Source: Platycnemis pennipes (taxonomy: Eukaryota > Arthropoda > Insecta > Odonata > Platycnemididae). Taken from it: a DNA stretch of 64,000 bases. Under the pieces are notes generated by a model. That model did not search any database. It was not told where the DNA came from and saw only the letters and a list, made by a program, of their open reading frames with translations. Numbering within the stretch: position 1 is the first letter of the stretch; every line of letters begins with the position of its first letter. This document shows, in pieces, positions 21,880 through 56,884 of the stretch. The position numbers and the translations under genes are program-made. Where the stretch lies: the NCBI GenBank assembly GCA_933228895.1, contig OW121856.1, forward strand, positions 15,951,805-16,015,804, written 5' to 3'.

Positions 21880-22452
21880 AAATTTGTTCCTCAAAGATTA
21901 ATGATGTACTTGATGCGAAATTTTCTCACCAATTGAAATATATAAGCTAAATTTTTCTGCGCCCACCACAAAGATTATTAAATGAATTTAAAATGTTCCC
22001 GGAAATTGACGAAAGTCACGTGACCTAAAAGGCCTTCTGACGTCACTGCACGATATAGGTTCCATATTGCTACGGAGATAGACATTTATTTTTAACAGAA
22101 AGCGAAGAGATATATTTTTTTTGAGGATTTTAGCCGTTTCTCGAACGAAAAGATGACTGAGAAAATGCTTAAAAAAGCACATTCCGATAATTTTCTTTGG
22201 TTGACTCCCTTATGACGGCGTTCTTCTTAAAAAAACCCAGTGATTGCATAGGCGTAGTAGAAATTCTTGGGCACTAAACAGGCATTATATAATTAATGGA
22301 TGATTTGCTCGTTACCATACATAACACGTAAATAAAAAATCGAAATACAATAGTTTTTTGTATTAAACAAATGAGATAAATACATAGTTTATCCCCAAGT
22401 ATTCATTGAACAACTTCCTCCACTCATAAGCAGATAAACAACGCCCATAGTG
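21880..22452 (+). repeat. Host repeat, left part, split by the Polinton-type element
   Basis: This segment aligns with 59405-59972 throughout (shared words include AAGTCACGTGACCT and TTCTGACGTCACTGCACG). The remaining right part resumes at 33298. The last six bases, ATAGTG (22447-22452), are the target duplication. Confidence 0.85.
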
Positions 22453-22498
22453 AGTAGGGTCAATTTGTTCATTCTGGGACAAGGTCGCCCTTGAAATT
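22453..22498 (+). repeat. Left 46-bp terminal inverted repeat
   Basis: Exact reverse complement of 33252-33297. Begins AGTAGGGTCAATTTGTTC. Immediately preceded by the ATAGTG duplication. Confidence 0.98.
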
Positions 22499-22518
22499 AC
22501 ATTTGCCTTACACTTCCC

Positions 22519-22599
22519 GATACGTCCAACCCACTTTCACTTCCGGATACGTCCAACCCACTTTCCCTTCCGGATACGTCCAACCCACTTTCCCTTTTC
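22519..22599 (+). repeat. Three-copy 27-bp subterminal tandem repeat
   Basis: GATACGTCCAACCCACTTTC recurs at 22519, 22546 and 22573 (period 27), 21 bp inside the left TIR. A weaker related block continues to about 22680. Subterminal repeats may be binding sites for replication or transcription proteins; that role is inference. Confidence 0.9.
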
Positions 22600-22762
22600 G
22601 CGCACGGAGACGTCTGCCCCCACGTTCACATTTCGTGCCCGCGACTCGGAGACACCCGACCCACTTTCACTTTTCGCACACGTGTTGAGGAGACGTGTAC
22701 CACCCTTCCACTATTGCTTGCAACATTGCCATCGTTTCTTCACCTCCCATCTTCTCAGACAG

Positions 22763-22770
22763 TATAAAAG
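22763..22770 (+). promoter_or_regulatory. TATA box of the left-arm gene
   Basis: TATAAAAG lies 53 bases upstream of the ATG at 22823, the expected spacing for a transcript starting near 22793 with a short leader. Confidence 0.7.
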
Positions 22771-22822
22771 CGCGTTAAATCGAAGCGATATATAATCGCT
22801 GACAGATATTCGACACGTAAGG

Positions 22823-23419
22823 ATGTCTCCCTTACTCTCCGTGAAAGCTGAGCTTGGTGGGAAGCATCAACTCCTCGTTCGCAAATTCAAGGATAATGTG
22901 AACAACATATATGAAGTGCTCCTCCCATTACCACTACTGGGCAACAACGAAGAGAACGATCTTAATCTCAGTATAGAATTTGAGGAGAGATGCTTCACAG
23001 TGTTCAAACATATGAACAAATCCATAAATATCGTGGGAAAAAGTGTAATATTTTCGGGGTTTGAGAATCCTGAAACAGATGAAGTGGAACGTTTCAACGT
23101 TTCCACGATCAAGCAGCTGAAACTCGAGGGGGATAAGTTGGAGAAGGCCAAGAGACAAGATCCATCCATCACGTGTCATGTCTACGATATAAAGAAGATG
23201 AAGAAGATTGCTTATTCAATGGGAGGATCCGAGTTCATTTCAAAAGGCGGGAGAACGTCAACGGATGGTGTCCAATTTGATTTCGCCCCACCTGTGACAT
23301 TCACAACTGGAGAAAAGTCACGAATCAACTATTGTAACGTTTACGATCAACGAGGGAAGCATTTGGAAACGTATACTTTTATACTGAATGTTGTACCAAC
23401 TGAATATACTTTGTTCTAA
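22823..23419 (+). CDS. Left-arm 198-aa protein of unknown function
   Basis: I do not recognise this protein. It begins at an ATG 53 bases after a TATAAAAG box and ends at a TAA overlapped by two AATAAA signals (23419-23429), so it looks like a complete monocistronic unit. The sequence is mixed alpha/beta in feel, with no signal peptide, membrane segment, Walker motif or cysteine cluster. A charged central part (residues ~95-130, KQLKLEGDKLEKAKRQD) precedes a glycine-rich stretch (MGGSEFISKGGRTSTDG) and a beta-rich end. It is the only plus-strand gene in the left arm and converges on the minus-strand block ending at 23547. As the sole TIR-proximal left gene it could be an early or regulatory protein, but nothing in the sequence proves this. 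Confidence 0.75.
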   Translation: MSPLLSVKAELGGKHQLLVRKFKDNVNNIYEVLLPLPLLGNNEENDLNLSIEFEERCFTVFKHMNKSINIVGKSVIFSGFENPETDEVERFNVSTIKQLKLEGDKLEKAKRQDPSITCHVYDIKKMKKIAYSMGGSEFISKGGRTSTDGVQFDFAPPVTFTTGEKSRINYCNVYDQRGKHLETYTFILNVVPTEYTLF

Positions 23420-23533
23420 ATAAAAATAAAATCAAATCTTCTCTCCTTGTTATCATTTCTCAATACCTTTTCCTTAATATTAAGAGGAAGGGTTGTTCAG
23501 TAAATAAAACACATAGCATATAGGTTTGACAGA

Positions 23534-23539
23534 TTTATT
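23534..23539 (-). terminator. Poly(A) signal of the minus-strand block
   Basis: AATAAA on the minus strand lies 8 bases past the stop at 23547. It probably serves the last gene or the whole virion gene block and faces the plus-strand signals at 23419-23429. Confidence 0.65.
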
Positions 23540-23546
23540 TCATTTT

Positions 23547-24017
23547 TTAACATATTTTATTTTGTGTACACCAATCTGCTAGCTTATAACAATTTTTTCT
23601 TGCACATTGCAGATTATTTTGAGAATGTGACTTAATTAAACAGTCCTCATTTGTGGCTAATTTCTTAAGTGAAGGACAGCCGTACATTTCCAAGTTACCC
23701 ACACATATTCCTTTGGGAAGGAGACTGGTCAAGAAGGATGCCTTTTGAGCACCTTTTGTGAATAAAAACTGATATCCCTTTGTATATTCATATAATATAC
23801 TCTCCAGTTCCGAATAATCTACATCCCCAGAGTATTCATTCAATCCATGATAGTTGTTTCTCAACCAAGACGAGTCTCTCGCGTACAGTAATCTTGCAGG
23901 CGATTTGAAAAGCCACGTATTGCAACATCTCGTATGCATATTAATGATGGCCAATTCCTTAACTATATATTCACCATAAGTTGCGGTGAATCCTTGAAAT
24001 TCGATAATGACACTCAT
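23547..24017 (-). CDS. Small C/H/CA/W-signature protein A (possible DnaQ-like fold)
   Basis: 156 aa from the ATG at 24017; an upstream extension would need a TTG start. It opens with SVIIEFQGF and IVKELAI, resembling the first beta-strand region of DEDD exonucleases, but the usual acidic pair is E6/Q8. Later come a NYHGL motif (55-59), the KGAQK segment (88-92), GCPSL (113-117) and a C-terminal signature C126-x4-H131-x6-C138-A-x6-L-A-x-W149-x3-N153. The protein at 24788-25309 has the same C-terminal spacing exactly. I have seen related 'FQGF...KELA' proteins described only as uncharacterised in arthropods. A nuclease-derived or zinc-binding role is inference; loss of the first acidic residues argues against normal exonuclease activity. 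It is the last gene of the minus block. Confidence 0.7.
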   Translation of the reverse strand: MSVIIEFQGFTATYGEYIVKELAIINMHTRCCNTWLFKSPARLLYARDSSWLRNNYHGLNEYSGDVDYSELESILYEYTKGYQFLFTKGAQKASFLTSLLPKGICVGNLEMYGCPSLKKLATNEDCLIKSHSQNNLQCARKNCYKLADWCTQNKIC

Positions 24018-24161
24018 GGTGTAATCTCTCAAACTTACAAGGTTTTTTACACCCAATGCCAGAGGTTCAAGAGATTACAAGAGCTTCTGACTTGCAGAAT
24101 TTTACCTCGTGCCAGAGGTCAGAAACCCTTTGCAAACACACGTAATCAAAGTACAACCAAG

Positions 24162-24755
24162 TTATACCTTTTGATTACAAGACACATCATTCAACATGAG
24201 TATAAAATCAAATTCCAACCTTTCCAGATCATTTTCAGTGATATCGTTAGATATCCTGCTAGCGAGAAATTGTCTAACCTTATCGTGATTGTCCGAAAGT
24301 CTCCGGAGGAATAGATTTATCAGATTGGAGATTTTTAATAGAGCTTCCCATTCACCGGCATTAAGGTTAAATGAGCTCTTTGGTAAAATATTTTTAATAG
24401 ACAAATGTCGCTTCCCAAAGTAATTTGCATAGGATAAGCAATTTGAGGAGAGCTGATCTTTTAAACCAGCATATAAATAATTACTCACTGATTTTTCCAA
24501 ATTTATGACATTAGTCCATTCACTATGTGAAACAATAACACTTTTCTTAGTTGTATGATTAAATTGCACTACTGGTTCAAAGTCTCTGCTGGGGTCGTAA
24601 CCCACACAAACACTTTTTGATTTTACACCATTGAGATAATACACAGTCTGAAGCAGTAAGTTATTAGTGTTAGAAAATGACGAGGGGGCGGGAGGATGTT
24701 CAACAGGTCTCTTCCTTTTCACTGGCGGAGACGCCTTCATCGATGATGACTGCAT
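24162..24755 (-). CDS. 197-aa protein of unknown function with two similar halves
   Basis: Starts at the ATG at 24755, 32 bp after the previous gene's stop. The first ~28 residues are basic and proline-rich (VKRKRPVEHPPAP), a possible nuclear localisation or DNA-binding tail. Two segments resemble each other: KSVIVSHSEWTNVINLEKSV (about 91-110) and FNLNAGEWEALLKISNLINL (about 130-149), each a short strand followed by S/G-EW and a helix, which recalls small PC4-like repeats. The frame ends in AAG-GTA-TAA, which also reads as a splice donor (AAG|GTATAA), so an alternative spliced ending is possible. Function not recognised. Confidence 0.6.
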   Translation of the reverse strand: MQSSSMKASPPVKRKRPVEHPPAPSSFSNTNNLLLQTVYYLNGVKSKSVCVGYDPSRDFEPVVQFNHTTKKSVIVSHSEWTNVINLEKSVSNYLYAGLKDQLSSNCLSYANYFGKRHLSIKNILPKSSFNLNAGEWEALLKISNLINLFLRRLSDNHDKVRQFLASRISNDITENDLERLEFDFILMLNDVSCNQKV

Positions 24756-24787
24756 AACAACTGATGATCGACAGGATATTATCTTGC

Positions 24788-25309
24788 TTAAGAGGGATTA
24801 GGTGGGGGAGGGGTGGGGGAACAGTCGCTGGAGCAAGGCTCAACTTCTGCTTTGAGGCGGTTGTATTGCATCCATTGAGCGAGGGAATGCGCATCACGGA
24901 GTGCGCACGTACTGCTACGTAACTTATGACATGGGTTCAGACAGGAAAAGGTGGGGAAGGAGCATTTTTCAGGTGCCGGACAATGGAGTTCTTTCTTCAG
25001 GGAAATGAAGGTACGGTCTGTGAGGTCGGAGAGGAACTCACACTCGGCTTCACTATATGCATACAAAGAGGTTGCTCCTTCAATGATGGCTTCCAGCGCG
25101 GGTAGGAGCTCCACATGTGAGATGAATCCATGATCGAAGGTAGTCTCCTCGCAGTTTAGCGGATCATGTAACCGCAGTTTCTTCCCACCAGCGATAAGCT
25201 TTCCATGCTTCTGAAAACTCCCCCAGAACAAACGATTTGAGTCGACATCCACAGCTGCCAGCTCAATGACGCCACCCTTGGCGAAGCACACTGACGCAAC
25301 GATCTGCAT
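24788..25309 (-). CDS. Small C/H/CA/W-signature protein B (possible DnaQ-like fold)
   Basis: 173 aa from the ATG at 25309, 18 bp after the protease stop. The C-terminal signature C123-x4-H128-x6-C135-A-x6-L-A-x-W146-x3-N150 matches protein A (23547-24017) position for position. Here the CALRDA core also resembles the AL-x-DA part of the DnaQ ExoIII motif. A middle helix (YAYSEAECEFLSDL, 83-96) aligns with LFTKGAQKASFLTSLL of protein A, and both follow with a strand. The N-terminal half has IELAAVDVDS and a tryptophan-containing strand. The C-terminal ~20 residues are acidic then proline-rich. The two genes look like diverged duplicates within one virus-like element. The molecular role is not established. 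Confidence 0.7.
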   Translation of the reverse strand: MQIVASVCFAKGGVIELAAVDVDSNRLFWGSFQKHGKLIAGGKKLRLHDPLNCEETTFDHGFISHVELLPALEAIIEGATSLYAYSEAECEFLSDLTDRTFISLKKELHCPAPEKCSFPTFSCLNPCHKLRSSTCALRDAHSLAQWMQYNRLKAEVEPCSSDCSPTPPPPNPS

Positions 25310-25327
25310 TTCGGAAAGTCTCTCTCG

Positions 25328-25843
25328 TCAATGATGTTTCTTCACCCGAAGCATCATATTTATTCTCGAGCAGCACCGTTGAGCTTTGGGATGACACTTG
25401 CTTTCACTCCTCAACTCGTTGAAGGTCAGGTGGAACCGCTCCAAAGCGCGACAGTCGTTGAGATGAGGGATGGTGTGATGGAATTGTGTGAGGAATTTGT
25501 GTAATGTGTACCCTAACGACTTACTAGCTGCGTAAAGACAGCAGTATTCTCCGCAAATATCAGAATGGAAACTTTGAATCTGAACGCTATTGTGAGTGTA
25601 AGCGAAAGGTTTCAAAAAATTTATTATACCCGGAACGAAAGGGGCCAATCCGTAAGAGTCGAAATACTCTCCTATTCCATTGAAAATATATACCGCGACC
25701 CAATGAGACCCGGGTAAGTATGAAGGGTCTAAATTCACTACGTATACACCATTTCTAGGAGATTGAGGTAATTTATCAGAAGCGAAGACTCCGCGGAATA
25801 TTTTAAACGGATTCAATAACCTATCAATCCGTACACTATCCAT
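25328..25843 (-). CDS. Adenain-type cysteine protease (Polinton PRO)
   Basis: 171 aa from the ATG at 25843. The order of catalytic residues fits the adenovirus protease/Ulp1 clan: H47 in PGSHWVAVY, D62 in EYFDSYG, Q90 in IQSFHSDICG and the nucleophile C97 in DICGEYCC. The FDSYG phrase and the Q-x6-C-G spacing are family hallmarks. In adenoviruses the enzyme matures capsid and core precursors during assembly; the same job is inferred here, and a matching cleavage consensus is visible in the core protein at 27141-27587. Length is near that of Polinton PRO and a little below adenain (~205 aa). All catalytic positions are intact. It starts 7 bp after the hexon stop, inside the virion gene block. 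Confidence 0.88.
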   Translation of the reverse strand: MDSVRIDRLLNPFKIFRGVFASDKLPQSPRNGVYVVNLDPSYLPGSHWVAVYIFNGIGEYFDSYGLAPFVPGIINFLKPFAYTHNSVQIQSFHSDICGEYCCLYAASKSLGYTLHKFLTQFHHTIPHLNDCRALERFHLTFNELRSESKCHPKAQRCCSRINMMLRVKKHH

Positions 25844-25850
25844 TGCAAGA

Positions 25851-27137
25851 CTAATAATTTGTGATGATGTTCCTGTTTTTATCGATTTCTAGAGAGGCAT
25901 CGTATTCTGCAAATACCAAGCACGTCACGGTGTTTGTCAATTCTTTCTCGAATTTCGCCTCTATTCGCACCACACCTCGATCTCCGAGACTTGCATAATC
26001 TTCGTTTCCTGAATCGTCCGGGGTGAGATCGAACACCAGCATGAAATATCCATGTCCAAACATGTCATACGTAATTTGATTTCCTCTATCATAATGCTTT
26101 ATTCCACTGCCTGAGAATATGGTATCATACGCTCGTGCCCAATACTTTTTACTGTAGAAATTACACTCCAACCCCTCGGAAGGAAACTGAACACCGTTTA
26201 CAAAGAGTGAAAAATTTTCCAGGGAATAGTGAGAGAGAGCAAATGGATTCTTGTCAACCTTACCAGCGTACGAGTCATTATCAACCATAGCAAATATTAT
26301 GGTGTTGGGTATTCGACCAACGATCGCATTATCAATGCTGAGAGTTCGTCCACCGGCAGGAACCGTGAAAGATTTCATTTCGGTACGTTTGTAGTGATAT
26401 CTAGCATTATTTTTTTCCAGCATCTTATTGTGTGCCAATAATATGGAAGGGTTGATGTCGAAATGTTGAACATAAAGAGTCGCATCTAGTATTTTTATTA
26501 TTCCCCCATCCACTCCCATCAGATTAAACGCGGGGTTTGAAAGCATCAACCTGATTCCTATATCGACCCGATCTAACAGCAATTGTGCCTGATTAAACAC
26601 ATCCACATGTAATTTACCATATAGCTCAACCTCGGCACTATTCTCGAACCAAGTCTTTCGCTTCACGTAACCTGCATTACTCACGTCAGTTTTATTAATA
26701 TCCTCCCCCGTATCCACTTCCCACCCAACATTCCTCAAATGCGTTCTACTCGCATCCCCACCATAATTCAACACATTTTCAATATAGCTCCTATAATGAT
26801 AATTATCTTCTGATGGGGTCACTAATGTCCCATTGAAATAAACGTTGCATTGTTCGAAGAGGGAGTGGAGAATATTGTTCACAACGCCTGGTTGATTTCC
26901 ATCGCTAGACGTATAATCTACCAAGCTCGTCTTACAAACCTTCACTCTCAGCTTGAGAAATATGCTATTCAAATCCTTGTAAGCATCCCCAGAATCTTTG
27001 ATCAGGAATTCAATCACCGATCTATTATCCAGCGATGATATAGGTTTGTAGGAGACTAGCCGCTTTGATAAAATGTTAGTCTGAATGGGTGGATTGGGTT
27101 GGAATAAGTCCAGCGAGCTCAGCATATGCTCACCCAT
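25851..27137 (-). CDS. Hexon-like major capsid protein (Polinton PY; F54H12.2-like)
   Basis: 428 aa from the ATG at 27137. The pattern matches the protein family annotated in many animals as 'F54H12.2-like', which belongs to Polinton capsid modules. Recognised landmarks are the N-terminal SSLDLFQPNPPIQTNILSK, then DLNSIFLKLRVKV, the FEQCNVYFNG segment, HYRSYIENVLNYG, a W-x-V-D-T acidic linker, HVDVFNQAQLLLDRV, and KNNARYHYKR leading to KSFTVPAGGR, VNGVQFPSEG and a beta-rich C-terminus. The alternating strands and large inserts fit a double jelly-roll capsid subunit. Family: established for Polintons and adintoviruses; the fold here is inferred. The frame is fully open. It sits between the core protein (3 bp upstream) and protease (7 bp downstream). 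Confidence 0.8.
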   Translation of the reverse strand: MGEHMLSSLDLFQPNPPIQTNILSKRLVSYKPISSLDNRSVIEFLIKDSGDAYKDLNSIFLKLRVKVCKTSLVDYTSSDGNQPGVVNNILHSLFEQCNVYFNGTLVTPSEDNYHYRSYIENVLNYGGDASRTHLRNVGWEVDTGEDINKTDVSNAGYVKRKTWFENSAEVELYGKLHVDVFNQAQLLLDRVDIGIRLMLSNPAFNLMGVDGGIIKILDATLYVQHFDINPSILLAHNKMLEKNNARYHYKRTEMKSFTVPAGGRTLSIDNAIVGRIPNTIIFAMVDNDSYAGKVDKNPFALSHYSLENFSLFVNGVQFPSEGLECNFYSKKYWARAYDTIFSGSGIKHYDRGNQITYDMFGHGYFMLVFDLTPDDSGNEDYASLGDRGVVRIEAKFEKELTNTVTCLVFAEYDASLEIDKNRNIITNY

Positions 27138-27140
27138 GAC

Positions 27141-27587
27141 TTAGTTGGAAAAAATATCTCTGTGCACGACCTTCTTCCCTCTTCGCCTTCTCTGCGAATG
27201 CCCTTTCTTTTTCCCAACACTAGTTTTTATTTTATTCAATCGTGGGCGCTTAACCAGTCTCATCCCACCCCCACTCATATTTTTTATCTTCTCCTCCGCT
27301 TTCCGTTTCAAGTTCTGCCCCGCCTCGTTTAATCTACTACGCAATATATCCTTAACCGGTTTAGTCCCCAGATCGCTCAAGGCTGCTGCCCCAGCACTAA
27401 CTGCCTCCTTACCAACCGTCTTCAACCCGCTGTAAAAAAGAGGTCTGGCAAAACGCCACAAACCAGCAAGAAAACTTCCTATACCCCGACCCTTTTGCAC
27501 ACGATACGATGCTCGATATATTGGTCCAATCTCCCCACCCGACTGCTTTAGGTAGTAAGATAAATAACGATCCGTCACCGGAGCCAT
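27141..27587 (-). CDS. Basic virion core protein (adenovirus pX/pVI-like)
   Basis: 148 aa from the ATG at 27587 (a longer frame would need a TTG). Order of parts: YYLKQSGGEIGPIYRASY (residues ~11-28), a glycine- and aromatic-rich amphipathic stretch GRGIGSFLAGLWRFARPLF (33-51), an alanine/glycine helix KEAVSAGAAALSDLG, then a strongly basic tail with KRKAEEK, KRPRLNK and QRRRRGKK. The layout resembles adenovirus minor core proteins, where an amphipathic segment can act on membranes and the basic tail binds DNA. MSGG-G at residues 104-108 fits the adenain consensus (M/I/L)-x-G-G|x, so the element's own protease could cut it. Position between penton-like and hexon-like genes is as expected. Sequence similarity across this class is low, so function is inferred from layout. 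Confidence 0.65.
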   Translation of the reverse strand: MAPVTDRYLSYYLKQSGGEIGPIYRASYRVQKGRGIGSFLAGLWRFARPLFYSGLKTVGKEAVSAGAAALSDLGTKPVKDILRSRLNEAGQNLKRKAEEKIKNMSGGGMRLVKRPRLNKIKTSVGKKKGHSQRRRRGKKVVHRDIFSN

Positions 27588-27616
27588 CTCGACGCTCAAT
27601 GATCAACCAACTCATA

Positions 27617-28672
27617 TCACATCTTTTTTATAAAATGCAATACGATGATGGAAGATTGCCCCCCACTGCGAAATGGTATTGACTCGCCGAGTTTGTCAGT
27701 CAACAAAATTTCTATGCTCTCGATGTTGTTTTTTTCGACGTGGTAATAAAAGATGGGATTGAATGTCCAGTGTAAGACTTGAGTGTTTAATATACGCAAG
27801 CATCGACTGAGCGAATCACCTACCAGTTGGGGTTTAATTATATCCGTGTAAACGTAAACGTTTTTGGGAGGAGACAAGATTTCTCTTTTCGTTCTACCAC
27901 TTCGCAAGTTGCGGTATTCAGCTTTAATTCTCTTGAAATTCTTTACGAAATCCTCCGCAAGTGTTGACGAAGATGAATCCCACTGATAGAAACGGAGAAG
28001 AATGCTTGATAATATCAGAATATCTTGTTTTATTTCAGCCTGCTGTTCGCCGTTGAAATCTTTAATCGATTTATCGAATAATTCCTTGAACGAATTATAT
28101 GTTCCTGGCTTTAACGTATACTTAACATCATCGGTAATAATCTGCACTGAGTTTGGTGATAATCTCTCATTTATACCACTCTTTTTATCATTCACTCTCA
28201 TTCCGTCTGCGTAAATCATTACATCATTCGCTATGTCAAACCTTTTCTCCCCGCTAATCTCAAAAAATGATGGTTCGAAGGCAAAAGCTATACTTTCGTA
28301 CCTACCATTTGGAACGACGAAGAACGAACCATCCTTCAACTTTACTCTAACAATATCTTTATCCTGAGGCCCACCAATTTCACCCCGGACCACTCCCTCC
28401 TCATTTCGAGTCCTATTATCTTTTGCTGGTGAGCCGGAAGATAACGCTTCTTCTTCCTCCAGAGTTCCCGGAGTCGCGGTTTCTTCTCTAACATCCCGCG
28501 AGAGAATACTCCCGTCTATGGGAGGAATAGAAATCTCAGCTAAACCTACCATCCATTCATCATTTTCCAAATCGACACGGTGTGATAATCTCGTACGGAA
28601 ATGTGATATTGTGTTGTGAGGAAAATATGTTTTGGAACTATCACTAGGTAACGTAATGTAAAACTCGTTCAT
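27617..28672 (-). CDS. Penton-like minor capsid protein (Polinton PW type)
   Basis: 351 aa from the ATG at 28672. The start overlaps the stop of the upstream integrase remnant (ATGA). The N-terminus carries the familiar pattern MNEFYITLPSDSSKTYFP, HFRTRLSHRVDLE and EWMVGLAEISIP. The C-terminus has NVYVYTDIIKPQLVGDSLS, then LR-I-L and a final strand pair ending IPFRSGGQSSIIVLHFIKK. The same two end blocks recur in insect and other Polinton minor capsid proteins. A variable, acidic middle (about 60-100, TATPGTLEEEEALSSG) looks disordered. In virions this protein would sit at the vertices. The frame is intact. Similarity is confined to the two ends, so the centre may differ among lineages. Confidence 0.72.
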   Translation of the reverse strand: MNEFYITLPSDSSKTYFPHNTISHFRTRLSHRVDLENDEWMVGLAEISIPPIDGSILSRDVREETATPGTLEEEEALSSGSPAKDNRTRNEEGVVRGEIGGPQDKDIVRVKLKDGSFFVVPNGRYESIAFAFEPSFFEISGEKRFDIANDVMIYADGMRVNDKKSGINERLSPNSVQIITDDVKYTLKPGTYNSFKELFDKSIKDFNGEQQAEIKQDILILSSILLRFYQWDSSSSTLAEDFVKNFKRIKAEYRNLRSGRTKREILSPPKNVYVYTDIIKPQLVGDSLSRCLRILNTQVLHWTFNPIFYYHVEKNNIESIEILLTDKLGESIPFRSGGQSSIIVLHFIKKM

Positions 28673-29004
28673 ATTTCACGTACCGAAGAAGCGAGGATCC
28701 AAGAATTAAATGATTTTGGGTATCCTTCCCACTTTACAAAATATTCTAAATCGCCAGCCTGCCCCCTGCGCTTCAAAATTTTCTCAATCTTATATTCCGC
28801 CTCGGGGGAAAGGTTAACCCGCACTAACTCCTGCTCATAGAAACTACCCTTTATATCCTCACCGTTTAGATCTTTCAACTCGTACGTGGGTATCTCCCTC
28901 GATTGATTCACACCCTCGACTTGGAATATTTCGCTGGTGTAATTAGGTGTATATCCTTTTGCAAATGGACGTCGTTCTTTACTGATTCTGACGTAATCAC
29001 CCAC
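28669..29004 (-). pseudogene. Integrase C-terminal remnant: SH3-like domain plus chromodomain
   Basis: 111 codons starting from a valine; there is no ATG in the frame and an in-frame stop lies near 29026. Residues 1-60 (VGDYVRISK, FAKGYTPNYTSEIF, TYELKDLNGEDIKGSFYEQE) are the SH3-like end of Polinton integrases of the F54H12.3 type. Residues 71-108 form a chromodomain (YKIEKIL, YFVKWEGYP, SWI) with the aromatic residues Y71, W92 and W102. The zinc-binding N-terminus and DDE core are absent and were not found elsewhere in the element. The upstream minus-strand sequence CACATCGTTTTAG looks like a splice acceptor, so it may once have been a 3' exon. It is still fully open over 336 bp. It overlaps the penton-like gene by 4 bp. 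Confidence 0.75.
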
Positions 29005-29144
29005 TAAAACGATGTGAATTGGAGGTTAATATAACTAGTATTGATTTTTCTACACGTCTTTCCCCCTGTGCATATCAACTTTTCCTCGATAGACCTTTGG
29101 ATTTTATATTAGATTTAGAGGGTTTTATTGGGGATACAATTCAC

Positions 29145-29576
29145 ATGGTCATTATTTTCTACACATACGGTTATAATTATTCTACTCTCCATTTTTGTCA
29201 AACGTGTGCAGTAACAATAAGACCGTACAAACCATGGAGCGTTTACGTTTACTGTGAACACCTTGCTCTGAATGTTTCGACCGTGGCGACTATGATTCGG
29301 AGGAGGGAGTATTGGTGCTCAAACTGTATTAGGACGCCCCTTTTCACCCTAATGGATAAGTCCGACTGTTTTTTAAGGTTTCAGGGACATATTGATTCGG
29401 GGGATGATACATCCTCGGGGGATGAATACTTTTCCTATAATTTCTCTTTTAATACACATCGGAGAAAAAAACACCTCACTCCCACTAAAGAGTACTTTCG
29501 TGCTCGGCGGCGGAGATGTCTCGACTCCAATTTCTCTTCAGATACGTTTTTAGAAAGTCCGTCCAACAGCGATTGA
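29145..29576 (+). CDS. Putative zinc-binding protein of unknown function
   Basis: The frame is open from 28992, but the first in-frame ATG is at 29145, giving 143 aa. The longer form would need a non-ATG start or a spliced exon. Paired cysteines C-x2-C (FCQTCAV), a C-x-H (YCEHLAL) and a second C-x2-C (WCSNCIR) are spaced about 15 and 18 residues apart and could bind one or two zinc ions. A serine/aspartate-rich acidic segment follows (SGDDTSSGDE), then a basic tail (RARRRRC). Such a layout suits a small nucleic-acid-binding regulator. I do not recognise the family. It diverges from the integrase remnant, whose start is within 30 bp of the open frame, so the two occupy a shared bidirectional zone. 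Confidence 0.5.
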   Translation: MVIIFYTYGYNYSTLHFCQTCAVTIRPYKPWSVYVYCEHLALNVSTVATMIRRREYWCSNCIRTPLFTLMDKSDCFLRFQGHIDSGDDTSSGDEYFSYNFSFNTHRRKKHLTPTKEYFRARRRRCLDSNFSSDTFLESPSNSD

Positions 29577-29648
29577 TGCCCCCCCCCCCCCCCCCCCCCC
29601 TCACCTAATCCCCCCTCACCTAATCCCCCCTCATCTAATCCCCCCTCC
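29577..29648 (+). repeat. C homopolymer and 15-bp repeat
   Basis: A run of more than 20 C begins right after the 29576 stop, followed by about three units of TCACCTAATCCCCCC. Such runs often vary in length between alleles and assemblies. Confidence 0.85.
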
Positions 29649-29699
29649 CTCAGCCTCGATTTACCCTCACCCTTTCACTTTACTAGCTAGTGCAATCTG

Positions 29700-29733
29700 T
29701 ATATATACGCTATGTTTGCTAGACAAGTCACTC
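29700..29733 (+). promoter_or_regulatory. TATA box and initiator of the right-arm transcript
   Basis: TATATATA at 29700-29707 is followed by an arthropod-type initiator TCACTC at 29728-29733, whose A (29730) lies 30 bases from the start of the TATA box. This spacing is canonical. The ATG at 29712 falls upstream of the predicted start and would not be in the RNA. Confidence 0.65.
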
Positions 29734-30200
29734 ATAGCAGCAGTCTCAATCAACTCTCTTCCGAGCAACGTCCGGGCAACTGCAAGCGGTATCTCATCAC
29801 AATCATCACCACCACCAGAAGCATCACTCAATACCAGCACCAGCAGCTAACCCTCACCTCAACGACCACCACCACAAGAAGCAGCACTGCACCACCACCT
29901 CCAGAAAAGCGTCACTCAATACCAGCCACAGCAGCTAACCCTCACCTCAACGACCACCACCAGAAGAAGCACCACTGCACCACCACCAGCACCAACAGCT
30001 ATCCCTCACCTCAACGACCACCACCACAAGAAGCACCACTGCACCACCACCTCCAGAAAAGCATCACTCAATACCAGCCACAGCAGCTAACCCTCACCTC
30101 AACGACCACCACCAGAAGAAGCACCACTGCACCACCACCAGCACCAACAGCTATCCCTCACCTCAACCACCACCAGAAGCAGCACTCGCCCACCCTTAAA
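29730..30200 (+). other. Predicted AUG-free, G-poor repetitive 5' leader exon
   Basis: From the predicted start to the splice donor there is no ATG in any frame over about 470 bases, despite the length. Composition is mainly A and C (ACCACCACCAGAAG-type words), with an imperfect tandem repeat of about 154 bp (CACTCAATACCAGCCACAGC recurs near 29909 and 30063). It is open in one frame, but the only ATG for that frame (29712) precedes the predicted start. I read it as a leader, not a protein. Confidence 0.55.
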
Positions 30201-30302
30201 GTGAGTATATTTTCCTTAGCAACCAATGCTCCTTTTATAATACAATCACTGTTACCAATATATGCTGATTTATTTTTCTCCTTTTATATATTAACGTTGT
30301 AG
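30201..30302 (+). other. Predicted 102-nt leader intron
   Basis: Donor AAA|GTGAGTAT and acceptor TATATATTAACGTTGTAG|A bound a 102-nt interval, with ATTAAC as a plausible branch site. The acceptor falls one base before the dUTPase ATG (30304), so splicing would place the leader directly against the start codon. Confidence 0.65.
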
Positions 30303-30303
30303 A

Positions 30304-30741
30304 ATGTTCATCACTATCAAAAAAGTACATCCACATGCAGTAATCCCCTTTCCATGCTATGACTGCCCCGCTGGGTATGACATTACTGCTATCCAGTCGG
30401 ACGTTATTGCTAAGCGTGGACGCTGTCTAATAAGAACCGGATTCTCTCTCGAGATCCCGAAAGGTTTATACGGTCGACTTGCCTCTCGCTCGGGATTATC
30501 CGTAAAATTCGGAATTGAAATTGGCGCTGGAATAATCGATCCAGATTATCGAGGAGAAATTAAAGTTCTTCTTTATAATCATAGTGATGAAGATTTTGTG
30601 GTGAAAAGGGGTGATCGAATATGTCAGATCATATTTGAAAGGATTGCTGTTGATATAGAGTTCGTTCAGAAAGATCCCAGTTTACCTACTAAACGGGGTG
30701 AATTTGGTTTCGGTAGTTCCAGTCACCTGGTGATTAATTGG
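30304..30741 (+). CDS. dut: dUTPase (trimeric family)
   Basis: Hydrolyses dUTP to dUMP and pyrophosphate, keeping uracil out of DNA and feeding dTMP synthesis. All five motifs of the trimeric family are present: AGYDIT (23-28), RSGLS (62-66), GIIDPDYRGEI (76-86, with D79 and Y82 at the substrate positions), RGDRICQII (102-110) and RGEFGFGSSS (131-140). With the predicted intron at 30741-30847 removed, the frame closes on TGA after 145 codons, the usual size; unspliced it would run to 30867 with an unrelated 42-residue tail. Animal viruses such as some adenoviruses and herpesviruses carry dUTPases; it is not one of the standard Polinton core genes, so it is probably acquired cargo. Catalytic residues are intact. 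Confidence 0.92.
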
Positions 30742-30847
30742 TATGAAGAAAAACATCGTACACATTCGACTTGCATGCATTTTCGATTCTCGGTTTTGTT
30801 AATGTTTTGTAATAATATTTTGTTAATGTTTTTCTCTTCTGTTACAG
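30741..30847 (+). other. Predicted 107-nt intron joining two coding units
   Basis: Donor TTG|GTATGA and acceptor TTTTTCTCTTCTGTTACAG|ATG. Splicing brings TG and A together, creating the TGA that ends the dUTPase and overlaps the ATG of the next gene (TGATG). The pyrimidine tract is strong. Confidence 0.55.
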
Positions 30848-31135
30848 ATGAGCGGATTGAAAAATAAATTTATCGCCCTCCAGAAGAGTGTGGAGTTTCT
30901 CCGGAGGGAGGAGCTCGAGGAGGGTGTAGGGTATCCGGTGGAGGGTTTGCAATACCTGGAGACGAGATATGGGGGCTCGGTGGTGGCCGAGATCATTTTC
31001 AAGGGGGTGAGGAGGAAGATTTTTCTTCCTCGCCACCTGAAAGCGAGTGAAAATGAGGTGAGGCTGTTTAACGAAAATGCCTGGGGTGAGGGCATGACAA
31101 TTAAAATCAAAAATAAATATATAGTGATTGAATGA
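30848..31135 (+). CDS. 95-aa small protein, possible OB-fold/ssDNA-binding type
   Basis: Starts at the ATG exactly at a predicted splice acceptor and ends at 31135; AATAAA at 31112-31117 overlaps its last codons. The pattern GYPVEGLQYLETRYGGSVVA, then a strand ending in KIFLPRHL, then a short helix and a final strand (MTIKIKNKYIVIE) resembles short 'Y-x-V-x2-L-x3-TRYG ... FLP' proteins that I have seen near transposon and virus genes in insects, generally unnamed. The all-beta layout with a basic face would suit an OB-fold that binds single-stranded DNA, but this is inference. It shares a predicted transcript with the dUTPase. Confidence 0.6.
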   Translation: MSGLKNKFIALQKSVEFLRREELEEGVGYPVEGLQYLETRYGGSVVAEIIFKGVRRKIFLPRHLKASENEVRLFNENAWGEGMTIKIKNKYIVIE

Positions 31136-31715
31136 AAAAACTGTGAGTTTTATTTCCGAAATCTCTCGCTCCTATCCCTTTAAATATTTTATTACCGTTG
31201 TGATTTTAATACTGAAGAAGTTTATTGTTTACGATTTTTTTTTCAATCCGTATAAATGAACGGCTATCCGTATAAATGATGCTCATCGTAAATAGTTCAC
31301 ACGTTAGCCCTATCCAATACAATAACCAAGATAAAATAAAGCTAAATAAGATGGCATTCCTTATCGGTAGCGGTGAAACTAAATATATTAAATGATGGAT
31401 TTTCGTTAGGGTCATTGATGATACCATGGTCGGGATATCACCCCACAGTGATCGGAGAGCTATCGGAGATTGATGGCTCACCGCGGGTTCTTAAGAAAAT
31501 CAGAATAGACTTAGGAGACTGGCGGGTACTCACCTCCTCAGAACACAGATGATTGTGGACCACAGCACAGGATAAGATGATTGTGGACTTACACGGTGAT
31601 TTCTGTTGGACCTTTGCAGCTGGGCTAACCCCAGTGCGTTGGTGAAGAGCTAACTCCACGCTCGCCTTATATACAGTGGAAAAGACCCCCACTCTACACC
31701 CCGTGCTTGAGGTCG
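31136..31715. other. Right-arm non-coding zone
   Basis: No protein family signature on either strand. A 105-codon minus-strand frame at 31438-31755 has no homologue I recognise and lies partly in repeats. Confidence 0.45.
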
Positions 31716-31965
31716 CACGAATTGAGTGGGGAGTTTCTATGTCAGATGCCTCCATGTCCGTGAACTTGCTATCGAGGGTGGAAGGTTTCTATGTCAGAAG
31801 GTTTCTAGACCTCCATCTAGTTTGTTAGGTCATGGTGTCGGGGTAGCGCAAAGAGGGTGGAACGTCTCTATGTCAGAGACACCCATGTTAGGTTGTTAGG
31901 TCATGATGTCGAGGTTGTGCGAAGGGGGTGGGGCGTTTCTATTCCAGAGACCTCCGTGACCATCG
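31716..31965 (+). repeat. Imperfect ~75-bp repeats in the right arm
   Basis: About four diverged units share TTTCTATGTCAGA and TTGTTAGGTCATG phrases and GAGGGTGG starts near 31774, 31853 and 31923. Confidence 0.7.
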
Positions 31966-32159
31966 CACCATTCTGCTCTCTTTGTGACGCTTACACAGAG
32001 TAAATCGCAGCGGGGAAATAACATGGCGGGTACATTAGCTTATAACTTCGGAAATTAAAATGCTCATATTTCGGTAACGGATTGTCGTATCAAGGTGGAG
32101 TAAAAACAGTTTCCTCATTTATATTGTTACAGTTCTTAATATATCGTCACATTTGGTGA

Positions 32160-33032
32160 TTTTATTGTGTTTCTTATTATTTATAACAATAACTTTTTTA
32201 CTGTTAACTTTTAACGTAGAAACCGATTGGATCGGTCCCGATCGCAACTCTTTAAATATGAATCCGCGGTGAAATTTTGAAATTTGTCTCGAATAAAAAA
32301 ATTTTTTGGAAATTTTTCCCCAACTTAGAATGATTTCATTCGGATATTAAAATTCATTTTTCGGGCTTAATATTAGTCGCAGTGAAAAATTGCACAGGAC
32401 CTTTTCGATTTATATTCCTAATAGGTATCGAACGTGACCGTTCACGTTCGTATTTTTATTGTTTTTATTATTGTTTATAACAATAACTTTTTTACTGTCA
32501 ACTTTTAACGTAGAAACCGATTGGATCGGTCCCGATCGCAACTCTTTAAATATGAATCCGCGGTGAAATTTTGAAATTTGTCTCGAATAAAAAAATTTTT
32601 TGGAAATTTTTCCCCAACTTAGAATGATTTCATTCGGATATTAAAATTCATTTTTCGGGCTTAATATTAGTCGCAGTGAAAAATTGCACAGGACCTTTTC
32701 GATTTATATTCCTAATAGGTATCGAACGTGACCGTTCACGTTCGTATTTTTATTGTTTTTATTATTGTTTATAACAATAACTTTTTTACTGTCAACTTTT
32801 AACGTAGAAACCGATTGGATCGGTCCCGATCGCAACTCTTTAAATATGAATCCGCGGTGAAATTTTGAAATTTGTCTCGAATAAAAAATTTTTTTGGAAA
32901 TTTTTCCCCAACTTAGAATGATTTCATTCGGATATAAAAACGCATTTTTCGGGCTTAATATTAGTCGCAGTGAAAAATTGTACAGGACCTTTTCGATTTA
33001 TATTCCTAATAGGTATCGAACGTGACCATCCA
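32160..33032 (+). repeat. Three-copy 294-bp tandem repeat with internal palindromes
   Basis: The unit start ATAACAATAACTTTTTTACT recurs at 32183, 32477 and 32771, an exact 294-bp spacing with very few differences. Each unit holds the palindrome GATCGG-TC-CCGATC and, at its end, the inverted repeat CGAACGTGA-CCGT-TCACGTTCG (for example 32429-32450); the last copy has lost the second palindrome. No gene is present. High identity implies recent amplification or ongoing homogenisation. Confidence 0.95.
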
Positions 33033-33251
33033 CGTTTTCCTAAGTTTCTTAACAGACGAGATAACGGCTATTGTTTAAATGTTTAATGTCTTTTATTAGC
33101 CATAGTTAGCTTATTTGAAGACTTAAATGAAAAATGAAAAGGACTTTTATTCCTTATAATTTAATTATCTATCGGATGGTTTCCTTTGTTTTTGTCTACA
33201 TTACTTAATAAGCGAGAAAACGCTTATTGTTTATTACGTTAGCAGAAGTAA

Positions 33252-33297
33252 AATTTCAAGGGCGACCTTGTCCCAGAATGAACAAATTGACCCTACT
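33252..33297 (-). repeat. Right 46-bp terminal inverted repeat
   Basis: Exact reverse complement of the left TIR, followed directly by the second ATAGTG (33298-33303). Confidence 0.98.
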
Positions 33298-33490
33298 ATA
33301 GTGATACCGTGTCGTCACGTCATGCGATGACGTTGTGTTTTTAAGCTGCCGAAAAGGTACAATTTTCAGATAGTAATACCTTTGTTACACAACCTAATTC
33401 TTCAGCAAAATTTTCGTCAAGTACATTTTAGCTATTAAACATTACATTAAAAGAGTTATAAAAAATAGTTCATGTTCCCCGTTGTTGCTT
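33298..33490 (+). repeat. Host repeat, right part
   Basis: Continues the repeat interrupted at 22452, aligning with 59967-60155 (shared ACGTCATGCGATGAC and AAAAATAGTTCATGTTCCCC). Begins with the duplicated ATAGTG. Confidence 0.85.
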
Positions 33491-46563: not shown

Positions 46564-49500
46564 TTGGTAAGGACGTACCTACCTACATGGCCACGCTCAC
46601 TTAAACTAATTAATTTGAATGTTCAGAGTTTACCAGCTCACTACAATGAACTGCGCTCAATAATCTCAAGTGATAAATTTCACATTATATCCTTAGCTGA
46701 AACCTGGCTGAAGCCCTCCATACCATCCAGCACCGTTGAGTTACCAGGCTACACTCTCCACTGAAATGATCGTACTGGGAAAGGTGGTGGTGGCGTAGGC
46801 GTGTGCGTAAGGAATAACTTAAAATGTAGGAAACTAGCTAAGAGTGATTATAATTACAACAAGAGGCCAGAATATCTACTCATTGAAGTAAAAATAAACT
46901 CCACAAAGATTATTATCGGCACAATATACAGGCCACCCAAATTGGGCCATCTTTCCGACCTGGATACTGTAATATCTGAACACTCAACGGAATATGAACA
47001 CGTAATATTAGCAGGAGACTTCAATGCCAACTTCAATACCAATACTTACGATACAAATTACCTTAGGCGAATCTTCTCAATAAATAACCTTAGCATTCTC
47101 CCACTCTGCTCTACAAACACGACTGCAACTGCTTCAACATGGATTGACCTAGTCATAACAGCTAAACAAGAAAAAGTTATTACGTATGGACATCTCCCAG
47201 CTCATGATCTAATATACCTTGTGTATTCAGGCAGAACGCCAAAATTCAAGCAAAAGTACATTCTTCGACGAAATATCAATGAAATAAATAATGAAGAATT
47301 ACTCAACGTAGCTTATACACTTCCATGGCCAGAGCATCACAGGTCACGGGCACTCTCTCAATACATATGATAGATTAGAACACGGATGGTAAGATAAACG
47401 GCGTAAATTTAACACCATGTTGATGTTTCTTTTTGTTTATTAATTTTTCCTTAATTCCCTTTTAACTATATTTTTTAATTCTTTTTTTCTCCTTACCTTT
47501 TGTAATTTTTCTTTTCTTGAATTTTATTATTATCTACTAATTTTCCTATGTACATGCTATTATATTTGAGTTATTCTTAAACACTAGCTTTACTGTCAGT
47601 AGGATTTCGCAGGTTTTTCACTCACCCCTTCTTGTGTGGGTGTTTTCCTGCAGTGGGTTTTTGCGTAAAGGAAGTAAGCATAATAATCCTCACGTTTTGC
47701 CCGCATTGTAAATTCTTTCACACACTATTAGATATGTAATATTGATATATTGTGTATATATATTTCTTTTGTATCAATTTATCATTCTTTAATTCCTATA
47801 AGTGTATTCTTTACTGATTTTTTTAACCTCAGATTGTAATTGTTTTAGGTATTGACCACTATTTGATTTATATAATTATTTTGACGAGGGGTTAGATGGC
47901 AGGAGGGACAGTTTTGTCTCAATCTCGCCCCAATAAAGACCTTTTATTATTATTATTATTATGGCCCTCCATTAAATTCACAGAAACAGTAGATGATAAA
48001 GTGGATATCTTAAACTCACTAATGATGTATCTCTTAGACAAATTTGCTCCAGAAAAAATAATTCGGTTATCCAAACCATGTGCACCATGGTTGAATACAG
48101 AAATTAAACAATCAATGGCGAAACGAGACTCAGCTTTTAGATCATTTAAGAAAACCCAGGCTGTCGAAGCATTTCACAAATATAAACTTCTTAGAAATAA
48201 AACGAAACAGCTAATAAGAAATGCCAAACTTAAATTCTTTCACTCAGTAACAACACTTAAAAACTCACCAGCGACGCTATGGAACAAACTCAAGTCCATT
48301 GGTATAGGTAAAACTAAAGATAGTGTCCTGCCACCAGACTTATGTCTTGACTCACTGAACGAAACATTTTCTCGGCCCCCCCCCATTCGTATTATAAAGG
48401 AGGTGAAAGAGCAAGCCCTAAAAATGTACCGCTCAAAAAATTCTCGAATGCTCTCTCTCGCGAAAAAGTATTCAAATTCACCCCAGTCACCCAAATGCAA
48501 GTACTTTCTTCTTTCAAAAAACTAAAATCTAAGGCAGAAGGCTCAGATGGTATACCACTTGAATTCATAAGAAAGCTGCTCCCTCTAATCCTCCCATGCA
48601 TCACCAACATCTTTAGCTCCTCACTATTTCAAAACCATTTTCCATGTCAGTGGAAAAGTGCTCTAATCAGACCTATTCCAAAAAAGAGTAAATCTCCTGA
48701 CGATAAAGATTTCCACCCTATTTCCTTTCTTCCGATCCTCTCCAAAGTTGTTGAAAAACTTGTGTGTGAACAAATGACCAATTTTTTAAACTGCAATAAC
48801 ATACTTGACCAGCTTCAATCCGGCTTTAGACATGGACACAGTACCACTTATGCACTAGTAAAAATATCAGACGACTTAAGAAGATCCATGGATATGAAAG
48901 AAGTAACAGTATTTATTTTGCTAGATTTCAGTAAAGCTTTCGATTCACTAGACAGTGAAATCCTTGCAGCAAAAATGAGTCGCATGGGTTTCTCCTCATG
49001 TACAATCACTGGATTACTTCATACCTAACGGGTCGAAAACAGAAAGTTTTTCGTAATGATTCATGCTCCTCGTGGGTCGAAACGAACCGAAGTTCCCCTC
49101 AAGTCTCTATCTTAGGACCTTTGCTAAGTTCTCTTTGCATTAAAGATTGCCCATCAGTGCTCAGAAATTGCAAGCATCATTTATACGTGGATGACCTCCG
49201 AATATATTTACATTCGAATGTCGATAACTTGTATAACAACCTGAGACTCATAAATGATGAACTTGAATTTATCAACAGTTGGAGTAAAACAAACTTTTTA
49301 AGTACAAATCCTGGAAAATCGCAAGCAATCATTATTGGATACCCGAGGATACTGAAAGACATTAAAAAAGATGAATTACCTCAGTTAAGTATAGCAAATG
49401 ACCCAATACCTTATTGTGAGGAGGTTAAGAACCTAGGAGTAATCATGGATGAAAGTCTGTCCTGGTCATCTTATGCAACTAAGATATGCAAAACAGCAAA

Positions 49501-49890
49501 TAAGTCATTATTCCCTCTTCTCAGATTGAGACACTTCATTCCTGTCTCTCTAAAAAAACAACTAGCCTTAATTCTAGTTTATAGACTAGTTTCCGCATTA
49601 ATTCTACCCCACTTTGACCACGCTGATGTAGTGTATCAAGATCTATCTCAGGGACTTTCATTAAAACTTCAACGCTCTTTCAATGCCTGTATCCGATTCA
49701 TCTTCAATCTACAAATAACTGATCACACTACCAATTTCATAAATAGTCTCTCCTGGTTGAAACCCAGTTCTCAACGTCTTTTTCATACGCTCTCCTGAAT
49801 GTATCAAGTTTTACACACCTAAATGCCGAAGTACCTTACGGACGACTTTCAAAAACTCAGCACAGTTCATGGATCCAACACACGTGGGAA
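46564..49890 (+). pseudogene. Family 3 LINE ORF2 (endonuclease plus reverse transcriptase), interrupted
   Basis: An APE-type non-LTR retrotransposon polyprotein. The endonuclease begins RSLKLINLNVQSLPAHYNEL, with SLAETWL, VILAGDFNANF and TWIDLVI in order; the RT follows with ALIRPIPKKS, FHPISFLPILSKVVEKLV, motif A LLDFSKAFDS and motif C LYVDDLRIY. The C-terminal region has LKLQRSFNACIRFIF. An in-frame TGA at 46762, a 630-bp insertion (47331-47960), frameshifts near 48390-48500 and 49010, and loss of the 3' end make it inactive. The active enzyme would nick target DNA and prime reverse transcription there. The clade is probably Jockey-like, by motif feel only. Confidence 0.85.
47331..47960 (+). 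mobile_element. Family 3 LINE 3' end inserted into another family 3 copy, TSD ATGGCC
   Basis: Flanked by ATGGCC (47325-47330 and 47961-47966). Removing it rejoins the host frame (LPW then PSIKF). It holds a 3' UTR ending GACGAGGGGTTAGATGGCAG and CCCCAATAAAGACC, with a (TTA)n tail at 47943-47960. Confidence 0.9.
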
Positions 49891-54478: not shown

Positions 54479-56884
54479 CATACATCTACATAATACCCTG
54501 CAAGCCACCATAAAGTTGTGTGGCAGGGGTTGATTTCTCACCAAACATGCACTCCCTATAATGCATAACAAAAGATTAGTATTTATATACTAGCCAAACT
54601 TCACTATTTAAAAGAGATAAAAATAGCAAAGTAAGCATGCAAAAACATACTGTAAGTTGGTGTACCTTCAAGTCCTTACACCTACGCTAAACATTGATTC
54701 ACTCGTATTGGACATATTTACCGCTATTCATATCCTCGATTGTACGAGGAAAAAAGTACATTTTAAATCTGTCAGTTCGGCAATCAATTTCTCTAATTTT
54801 GTGATTATCGCCCAGTCTACCATAGTAAGTTGGGGTTCGGAATATATTTTTAACGTCATCACTGAAAATATGGTCTTGGACTTTGTTTAAGAGATTAAGT
54901 CTAAATTTCAACCTGAGATCTGACAATGATTCCCACTTTGATTTATTTAATACACTGGTTACGCTACCGTCCCTTTACAAATCTTGCCGATCTTCGCAGC
55001 ACACGTTCAAGTTCATTATTTAGACCGATTTCGTAGGATCCCATACACTGGCAGCATATCCCAAATGAGGTCTTACTAGGGAAAGGTAGCTGATTTCTCG
55101 TACATGATCGTCACATTTACCCAGTACTCTTTTGACGAATCCCAGTTTACGATTCACTTGACCCATTATTTCACGAATGTGTTTACCCCAGGAAAGATCG
55201 TGTGTCAGTCTTATTCCAAGATATTTAATGGATTCCACGTTTTTTAATTCATTATTACTGATTTTGTAAGTGCTGGGAGGAGAGCTAGTCTTTTTACAAA
55301 AATTCATTACTACACATTTTTTAAAATTTAATTCTACCTGCCATTATCACAGCAATTTTTGATTGCTTGTAGGTCAGTATTTAAATATTCTTTATCGTTT
55401 GGGCATAGAATTTCCCTGTACACTACTGCATCTTCGGCAAATAGACTAAATTTACTTTTTACCACCTTATTGATATCATTTATGTAAAGGAGGAACAGGA
55501 GTGGACCTATCACACCACCTTGTGGGACACCCGAAGTGACTTTAATTGCCGGTGAGGTAACACCGTCCAAAACAACCCATTGCACCCGATCATGTAGAAA
55601 ATCACTTATCCATGATATAATGTTACTGTCTAGCCCATAATATTTTAAATTCAAAATTAGTTTGCTATGAGATACCTTGTCAAAAGCTTTCTTGAAATCG
55701 AGAAATATTGCATCCACTGGAATATTATTTTCCCCAGAAACTAAAATATCGTGGGAAAAGAGAGCAAGTTGAGTTTCACATGATCTGCTCTTTCGGAAGC
55801 CATGCTGAACATTGCACAACAAATTCTGGCTATCTAGGTGCCCCAAGACTGAACTGACAATTATATGTTCTAGGACCTTGCATGAAATGGATGTGAGAGA
55901 TATTGGTCTGTAGTTAGATGGCTGCTCCCTATCACCACTTTTAAAAAATGGGTGTTACATCAGCTACTTTCCAGTCCATAGGTACGACGTGTTCAGTGAG
56001 GGATTTATTAAATACTATTTGAAGGTAGGGAGAAATTTCGGAAGCTAACTCTCTATACACGCGGGAGGGAATATGATCAGGGACAGGAGATTTGTTGGGG
56101 CTTATATCTTTGAGTAACTTTTCAATGCCATTACAGGAAATTTCTATTGGTTGCATCAGCCGCTAAAAGAGGTCAGGTAACACGACAGTTGGATCGCCGT
56201 AAGGTGGGTTAAAAACGGTTTGGAAGAAGGAATTAAGCAAATTAACTTTGTCAAGAGTGTTTGTGGCCATTTCCCCCCTATCATTTTTTAGTGAATGGAC
56301 GGTAGACTTATGGCCTTGCACCTCCCTGACGTAGGACCAGAAGACTTTTGGATTTTCCTTCAGTTGTTCCCCAAGTGTTTTTCGTTTGAATTCTGCGAAT
56401 GCATTACTAAGTGCTGTCTTTGCAGCGGATTTTGAAATTTTATAATTTTCAATTATTACGTTACGCTCATTAGTGGGCATATATTTACTATTTCTTTTCA
56501 TTTTAGCATGACATATTCGCTGCCGTCTCAGGGATTTTCTCACTTCGGCATTGTACCACCTAGGTTCAGTGCTTTCTTTTTTAAATTTACATGGGATATA
56601 TCTATTGATCCGAGAGCGCATGATATTAATGAACGGCTTCCAGGATCCCTCCGTACATAAGTTGATGGAAGACTTTTTAAAATCCGATAAGGAATCTCTT
56701 AAATAAATTTTAAAGCTAGGAAAGTCAGCTCTTTTAAAAATATAAATCTTTATCTTTTGTTTAAAATTTTTGCCTAAAGTTAGTGAGAATTTTGCTGTTA
56801 TAACTATATATACTGGTATACTGTTATATATATATACTGGTCACTGATTCCATCAACCGTGTCAATCTTAGTCACTTGTTGTGG

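Follow-up and report, generated by a model that had tools for sequence, protein, structure and literature searches.

The closest described systems to the element considered here are the adintoviruses and animal Polintons (Mavericks), together with a general class, the internally deleted copies of DNA transposons, in which the termini and the target duplication are kept and the interior is lost. The element occupies 10,845 bp (22453-33297) of a 64,000-nucleotide stretch of Platycnemis pennipes DNA, called the window below (C10:15951805-16015804, in a genome of 1.79 Gb and 88 contigs). We conclude that it almost certainly derives by internal deletion from an adintovirus-type Polinton that has many long copies in the same genome, and that this derivative is very young and exists as a single copy. 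Incomplete gene sets are common among Polintons, to judge from the gene counts of Krupovic et al. (PMC4028283), where full-length major capsid proteins (MCPs) were present in 46 of 72 elements and split MCPs in 13, and where ATPase genes were identifiable in 83% and the protease in 74%. No published account of the window element was found in the limited collection of literature searched.

Intact ends around a missing interior

The initial annotation had noted perfect 46-bp terminal inverted repeats (TIRs) and a perfect 6-bp target duplication, and both observations hold: the TIRs are complementary at 46 of 46 bases (100%), and ATAGTG flanks them on either side (Table 1). A chance origin of the TIRs is ruled out by this pairing and by 97 matches in the genome, against 0 for a reversed-pattern control. 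That no PolB, packaging ATPase or integrase core could be seen is likewise borne out, by a tblastn search of the whole window with the three corresponding proteins of a 14,593-bp member of the family. Neither PolB nor the packaging ATPase gave a significant match, and the integrase core was not found; the sole significant match was to integrase residues 296-406, the last 111, at 28672-29004 (99% identity, E 4e-68). Set beside a complete Polinton or adintovirus, then, the window element has the TIRs, the 6-bp duplication and an adenain-like protease, and is without PolB, packaging ATPase and retroviral-type integrase. The names of the three query proteins are not equally secure. The integrase assignment in the 14,593-bp copy is firm (rve, E 2.2e-14); its ATPase has a weak Pox_A32 match below the cut-off (E 0.0012) and a P-loop spotted by eye; and the protein that we take to be PolB, from motifs spotted by eye, was named by neither Pfam nor phmmer against solved structures.

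Where, then, are the missing genes? An 18,283-bp copy with a perfect target duplication (C16:591556-609838) has them between the same two arms. Over both arms the window element and the C16 copy differ by 6 substitutions in 10,829 aligned bases and by 3 indel events in total, with 4 substitutions in 6,553 for the left arm (22453-29005) and 2 in 4,276 for the right arm (29009-33297). Where C16 has 7,452 bp, the window has AAA. Within those 7,452 bp lie the ATPase and PolB, the greater part of the integrase gene and a portion of a frame of 305 amino acids (aa). In C16 the integrase is full (406 aa; rve, E 2.9e-14), the ATPase has 227 aa and a weak Pfam match, and the two stretches of PolB that were read, with 101 bases shared, are both open (930 and 327 aa). 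The break cuts two genes, leaving the last 111 codons of the integrase and a remainder of the 305-aa frame, and a whole-genome search for the 36-mer across the junction, with up to 3 mismatches allowed, finds it a single time. Because the ends are intact, the arms match C16 nearly perfectly, the 7,452 bp are absent and the junction is unique, we regard the window element as a unique young deletion derivative, and nothing among the results contradicts this. A recent deletion was one of the two readings offered by the initial annotation, and it is supported by the C16 copy and by the uniqueness of the junction.

The 46-bp terminal repeat is found 49 times in forward and 48 times in reverse orientation, the window element's own ends included (97 matches, with up to 3 mismatches), and 90 of these could be paired into 45 elements, 7 single ends being left out. 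Copies with the same TIRs had been suggested for a comparison of lengths: 28 of the 45 are of 14.0-15.1 kb, 6 exceed this range and 11 have less than 11 kb, and none of the other 44 has the length of the window element. Twelve copies, on nine contigs, are exactly 14,593 bp long (10 with a perfect 6-bp duplication, 2 with one of 5 bp), which suggests a recently active Polinton family in this genome; a perfect 6-bp duplication is present in 38 of the 45 pairs. Since eight pairs near contig ends have one common pair of flanks, they represent one insertion, spread by duplication. Two pairs on C24 also have common flanks, and one copy on C1 and one on C3 have the left flank only in common. A DNA search with the MCP gene gave 207 candidates, of which the best 40 were scored, all 40 at 98-100%, so that the copy number is a lower bound.

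The two arms have different distributions. Among the best 40 of 217 right-arm candidates, a full-length match at about 100% is given only by the window and C16, the others being partial or more diverged. In the 14.6-kb copies read, the left arm is present (about 99.1-99.2% identity to that of the window element) but, terminal repeats excepted, this right arm is not. A 16.7-kb copy on C9 matches both arms, the left one at about 99% and the right one at 95-99%, and has its own different deletion. Diverged matches (77-95%) to the segment of right arm and dUTPase are densely packed at C12:15.8-18.3 Mb, which could be a graveyard or a silencing cluster. Related elements are also found at C3:9540847-9546543 and C3:10201098-10210637, with 84-94% identity in the matched pieces and with segments of the window element both reordered and reoriented.

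How and when the interior was lost

Both ends and the target duplication are of the kind that a normal insertion leaves, and the element more probably inserted first and lost the 7,452-bp interior, in a single deletion, afterwards. The deletion was probably made by end joining, and not by recombination between repeats or by gene-by-gene loss, because the break has no microhomology, carries three extra bases and cuts two genes. Was the interior lost in the chromosome, or did the element arrive already deleted? We lean towards loss in the chromosome after insertion because nothing shows a second insertion of the deleted form, though this is a weak argument. The reverse order, to which we give less than an even chance, would have a genome deleted during virus-like replication and then inserted by the enzymes of an intact relative, in the manner of a defective interfering genome. 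The perfect termini and target duplication suit such a history, as does the retention of both by other deletion derivatives of the family; however, perfect ends are expected equally after a deletion in place, the whole-genome junction search gave no second insertion, and a 5.15-kb derivative of the family has multiplied together with its flanks, through duplication of its site and not through new insertions.

Some points weigh against our account of a simple end-joining deletion in the chromosome. C16 has CTAAA two bases further on, and AAA may be a short slip of left-arm sequence; the junction is known from the assembly alone, which is taken as given; and the order of deletion and insertion is one that we infer.

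Other short derivatives with intact termini are the 5.15-kb form, which has its own deletion of about 9 kb and lies at one duplicated subtelomeric site, and a form of 4,472 bp. One might think that the subtelomeric copies of 5.1-7.7 kb had been shortened in situ, with a 19.8-kb copy at their site as the source. This idea was dropped: the 19.8-kb copy already has the deletion of the 5.15-kb form, plus a nested insert, and the short copies are therefore not usable for timing. A copy with the deletion of the 5.15-kb form is interrupted by an insert of about 14.6 kb (C1:173832267-173846912), which has a 6-base stretch of the host element on either side. In the parts of this insert that were read, no stretch of at least 150 bases matches the window element or a 14.67-kb copy, and the insert possibly represents a second Polinton-sized family.

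Age, selection and dependence on other copies

How old is the deleted copy? When the substitutions between the window and C16 are sorted by comparison with the C9 and 14.67-kb copies, 2 are private to the window (25993, in the MCP gene, and 30667, in the dUTPase gene), 3 belong to C16, and that at 29561 can be given to neither. The insect substitution rate is about 3e-9 per site per year, and at this rate the two copies would have had a common ancestor on the order of 0.1 million years ago.

The initial annotation had proposed dN/dS on the capsid genes as a check, and the comparisons across copies gave ratios of non-synonymous to synonymous differences per site (pN/pS) of 0.12-0.40, which carry no information on constraint after the deletion. 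Against C16, the left-arm genes have three coding differences, all counted as non-synonymous and one of them beside an indel, a result that fits neutrality and has no statistical power. The comparison with the 14.67-kb copy gave 23 synonymous and 10 non-synonymous differences (pN/pS 0.12); that with a 14,593-bp copy, with part of the core gene uncovered, 23.5 and 15.5 (0.18); and that with the C9 copy, with one gene missing and two partly covered, 18 and 26 (0.40). Constraint on the family looks visible in the first two of these comparisons and less clear in the third, and the value of 0.12 mostly reflects family history before the deletion. With no more than two demonstrably private substitutions over 10.8 kb, the window copy has too few mutations of its own for any selection on its capsid genes after the deletion to be shown. 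The open capsid frames of the window copy are a result of its youth, and in so young a copy they give no information on selection.

We infer that the window copy is incapable of replicating or integrating alone. Its termini are intact, so that enzymes from elsewhere in the family might move it, although no trace of such mobilisation in trans is seen. That the copy is an active helper-dependent provirus, making capsids and being replicated, packaged and inserted by the enzymes of intact relatives, is very unlikely; if it were so, the copy might interfere with its relatives or supply particles for them. The second reading of the initial annotation has found no support and is less credible still: it would make the element part of an independent lineage of reduced elements, which provide virions and obtain polymerase and integrase from full-length relatives. 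The termini and the capsid, protease and dUTPase frames are intact, as such a lineage would have them, and the genome also contains relatives that encode the missing enzymes and whose 46-bp termini are identical or almost identical to its own; yet a lineage would be expected to have inserted independently, in the same reduced form, at two or more sites, and here the junction is found once, the length is matched by no other paired element, two genes are cut at the break, and two demonstrably private substitutions are too few to show selection. That two similar copies were wrongly joined during assembly or haplotype merging, for which the many near-identical copies in the genome might give occasion, is hardly to be believed of a junction that has three extra bases and does not lie at shared sequence, in a copy with private substitutions and with flanks that carry a matching target duplication.

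Retained genes and comparison with known systems

The Pfam search covered 12 chosen frames of the window element and the PHROGs search 10, the core frame not among the latter. The MCP, core-like, penton-like and protease frames are all open, as the initial annotation had seen, but its "full virion gene set" is too strong because the packaging ATPase has been lost. The predicted structure of the MCP (predicted local distance difference test score 84) matches the double-jelly-roll MCPs of virophages (Sputnik, mavirus) and PBCV-1, with a best E of 6e-17. It has 947 relatives at E <= 0.001; among the 120 listed, the two nearest are unnamed (84-85% identity), and the named ones are from Ladona fulva (54%), Hetaerina americana (50%), Ischnura elegans (45%) and Drosophila obscura (44%), the best of them being odonates. 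The protease has 214 relatives at the same threshold, and PF00770 is found in 5 of the 120 listed; the frame itself has no direct Pfam match, and phmmer against solved structures gave chance-level matches only. The penton-like frame has 10 relatives, and its name is tentative because its best match, to the mavirus penton, is weak (E 9e-4, template modelling score about 0.3, predicted template modelling score of the model 0.46). The basic core-like frame has no Pfam match and is named from its composition and position. Overlooked by the initial annotation were the chromodomain-bearing integrase tail (Pfam E 1.3e-8 for the chromodomain), the truncated frame to the right of the break, and the dUTPase, which is the only recognised gene of the element that PHROGs named.

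A 22-bp palindrome is present in at least two of the three 294-bp tandem units (at 32429 and 32723). Elsewhere in the window, broken frames at 46765-49798 and 55334-55954 resemble, by eye, the endonuclease and reverse transcriptase of a non-LTR (long terminal repeat) retrotransposon.

Table 1. Features of the window element and its immediate flanks (positions in the window)
Feature	Position	Strand	Evidence
Left target-site duplication ATAGTG	22447..22452		Flank comparison
Left TIR, 46 bp	22453..22498	+	TIR comparison
Open frame, 207 aa, no assigned function	22796..23419	+	Open reading frame (ORF) list, Pfam
Open frame, 175 aa, no assigned function	23547..24074	-	ORF list, Pfam
Open frame, 211 aa, no assigned function	24162..24797	-	ORF list, Pfam
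Open frame, 179 aa, no assigned function	24788..25327	-	ORF list, Pfam
Adenain-like cysteine protease frame, 186 aa	25328..25888	-	Relatives search
MCP frame, 429 aa	25851..27140	-	Relatives search, predicted structure
Basic core-like frame, 153 aa	27141..27602	-	Composition and position only
Penton-like frame, 352 aa, tentative	27617..28675	-	Relatives search, predicted structure
Integrase gene cut to its last 111 codons, chromodomain kept, without catalytic core	28669..29005	-	Pfam, tblastn
Deletion junction, AAA replacing 7,452 bp of the C16 copy	29006..29008		Comparison with C16
Remainder of the 305-aa frame of C16	29009..29576	+	ORF list, comparison with C16
Short tandem repeats, low complexity	29595..30175		Repeat analysis
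dUTPase frame	30295..30867	+	Pfam E 6e-32
Open frame, 102 aa, no assigned function	30827..31135	+	ORF list, Pfam
Three tandem 294-bp units near right end	32160..33036		Repeat analysis
Right TIR, 46 bp	33252..33297	-	TIR comparison
Right target-site duplication ATAGTG	33298..33303		Flank comparison

What does the window copy add to the known systems? The copy itself is ordinary, and a capsid-only virus of a new kind is not indicated; the appearance of virion genes without a replicase can arise from one recent deletion. The wider family, with its twelve 14,593-bp copies on nine contigs, is of more interest. With the adintoviruses and animal Polintons it is joined by the protease relative "adenain [Ladona dragonfly adintovirus]" (51% identity), the only one listed with an adintovirus name, and by the long copies read in the same genome, which have PolB, ATPase and an rve integrase with a chromodomain. 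The window copy differs from those systems in being without PolB, ATPase and integrase core through one deletion, and the dUTPase and this right arm are present in only a subset of the family. From internally deleted DNA transposons it differs in that the MCP, penton-like and protease genes are retained and no amplification is seen; it resembles them in that source-type copies, with the missing interior, are present in the same genome.
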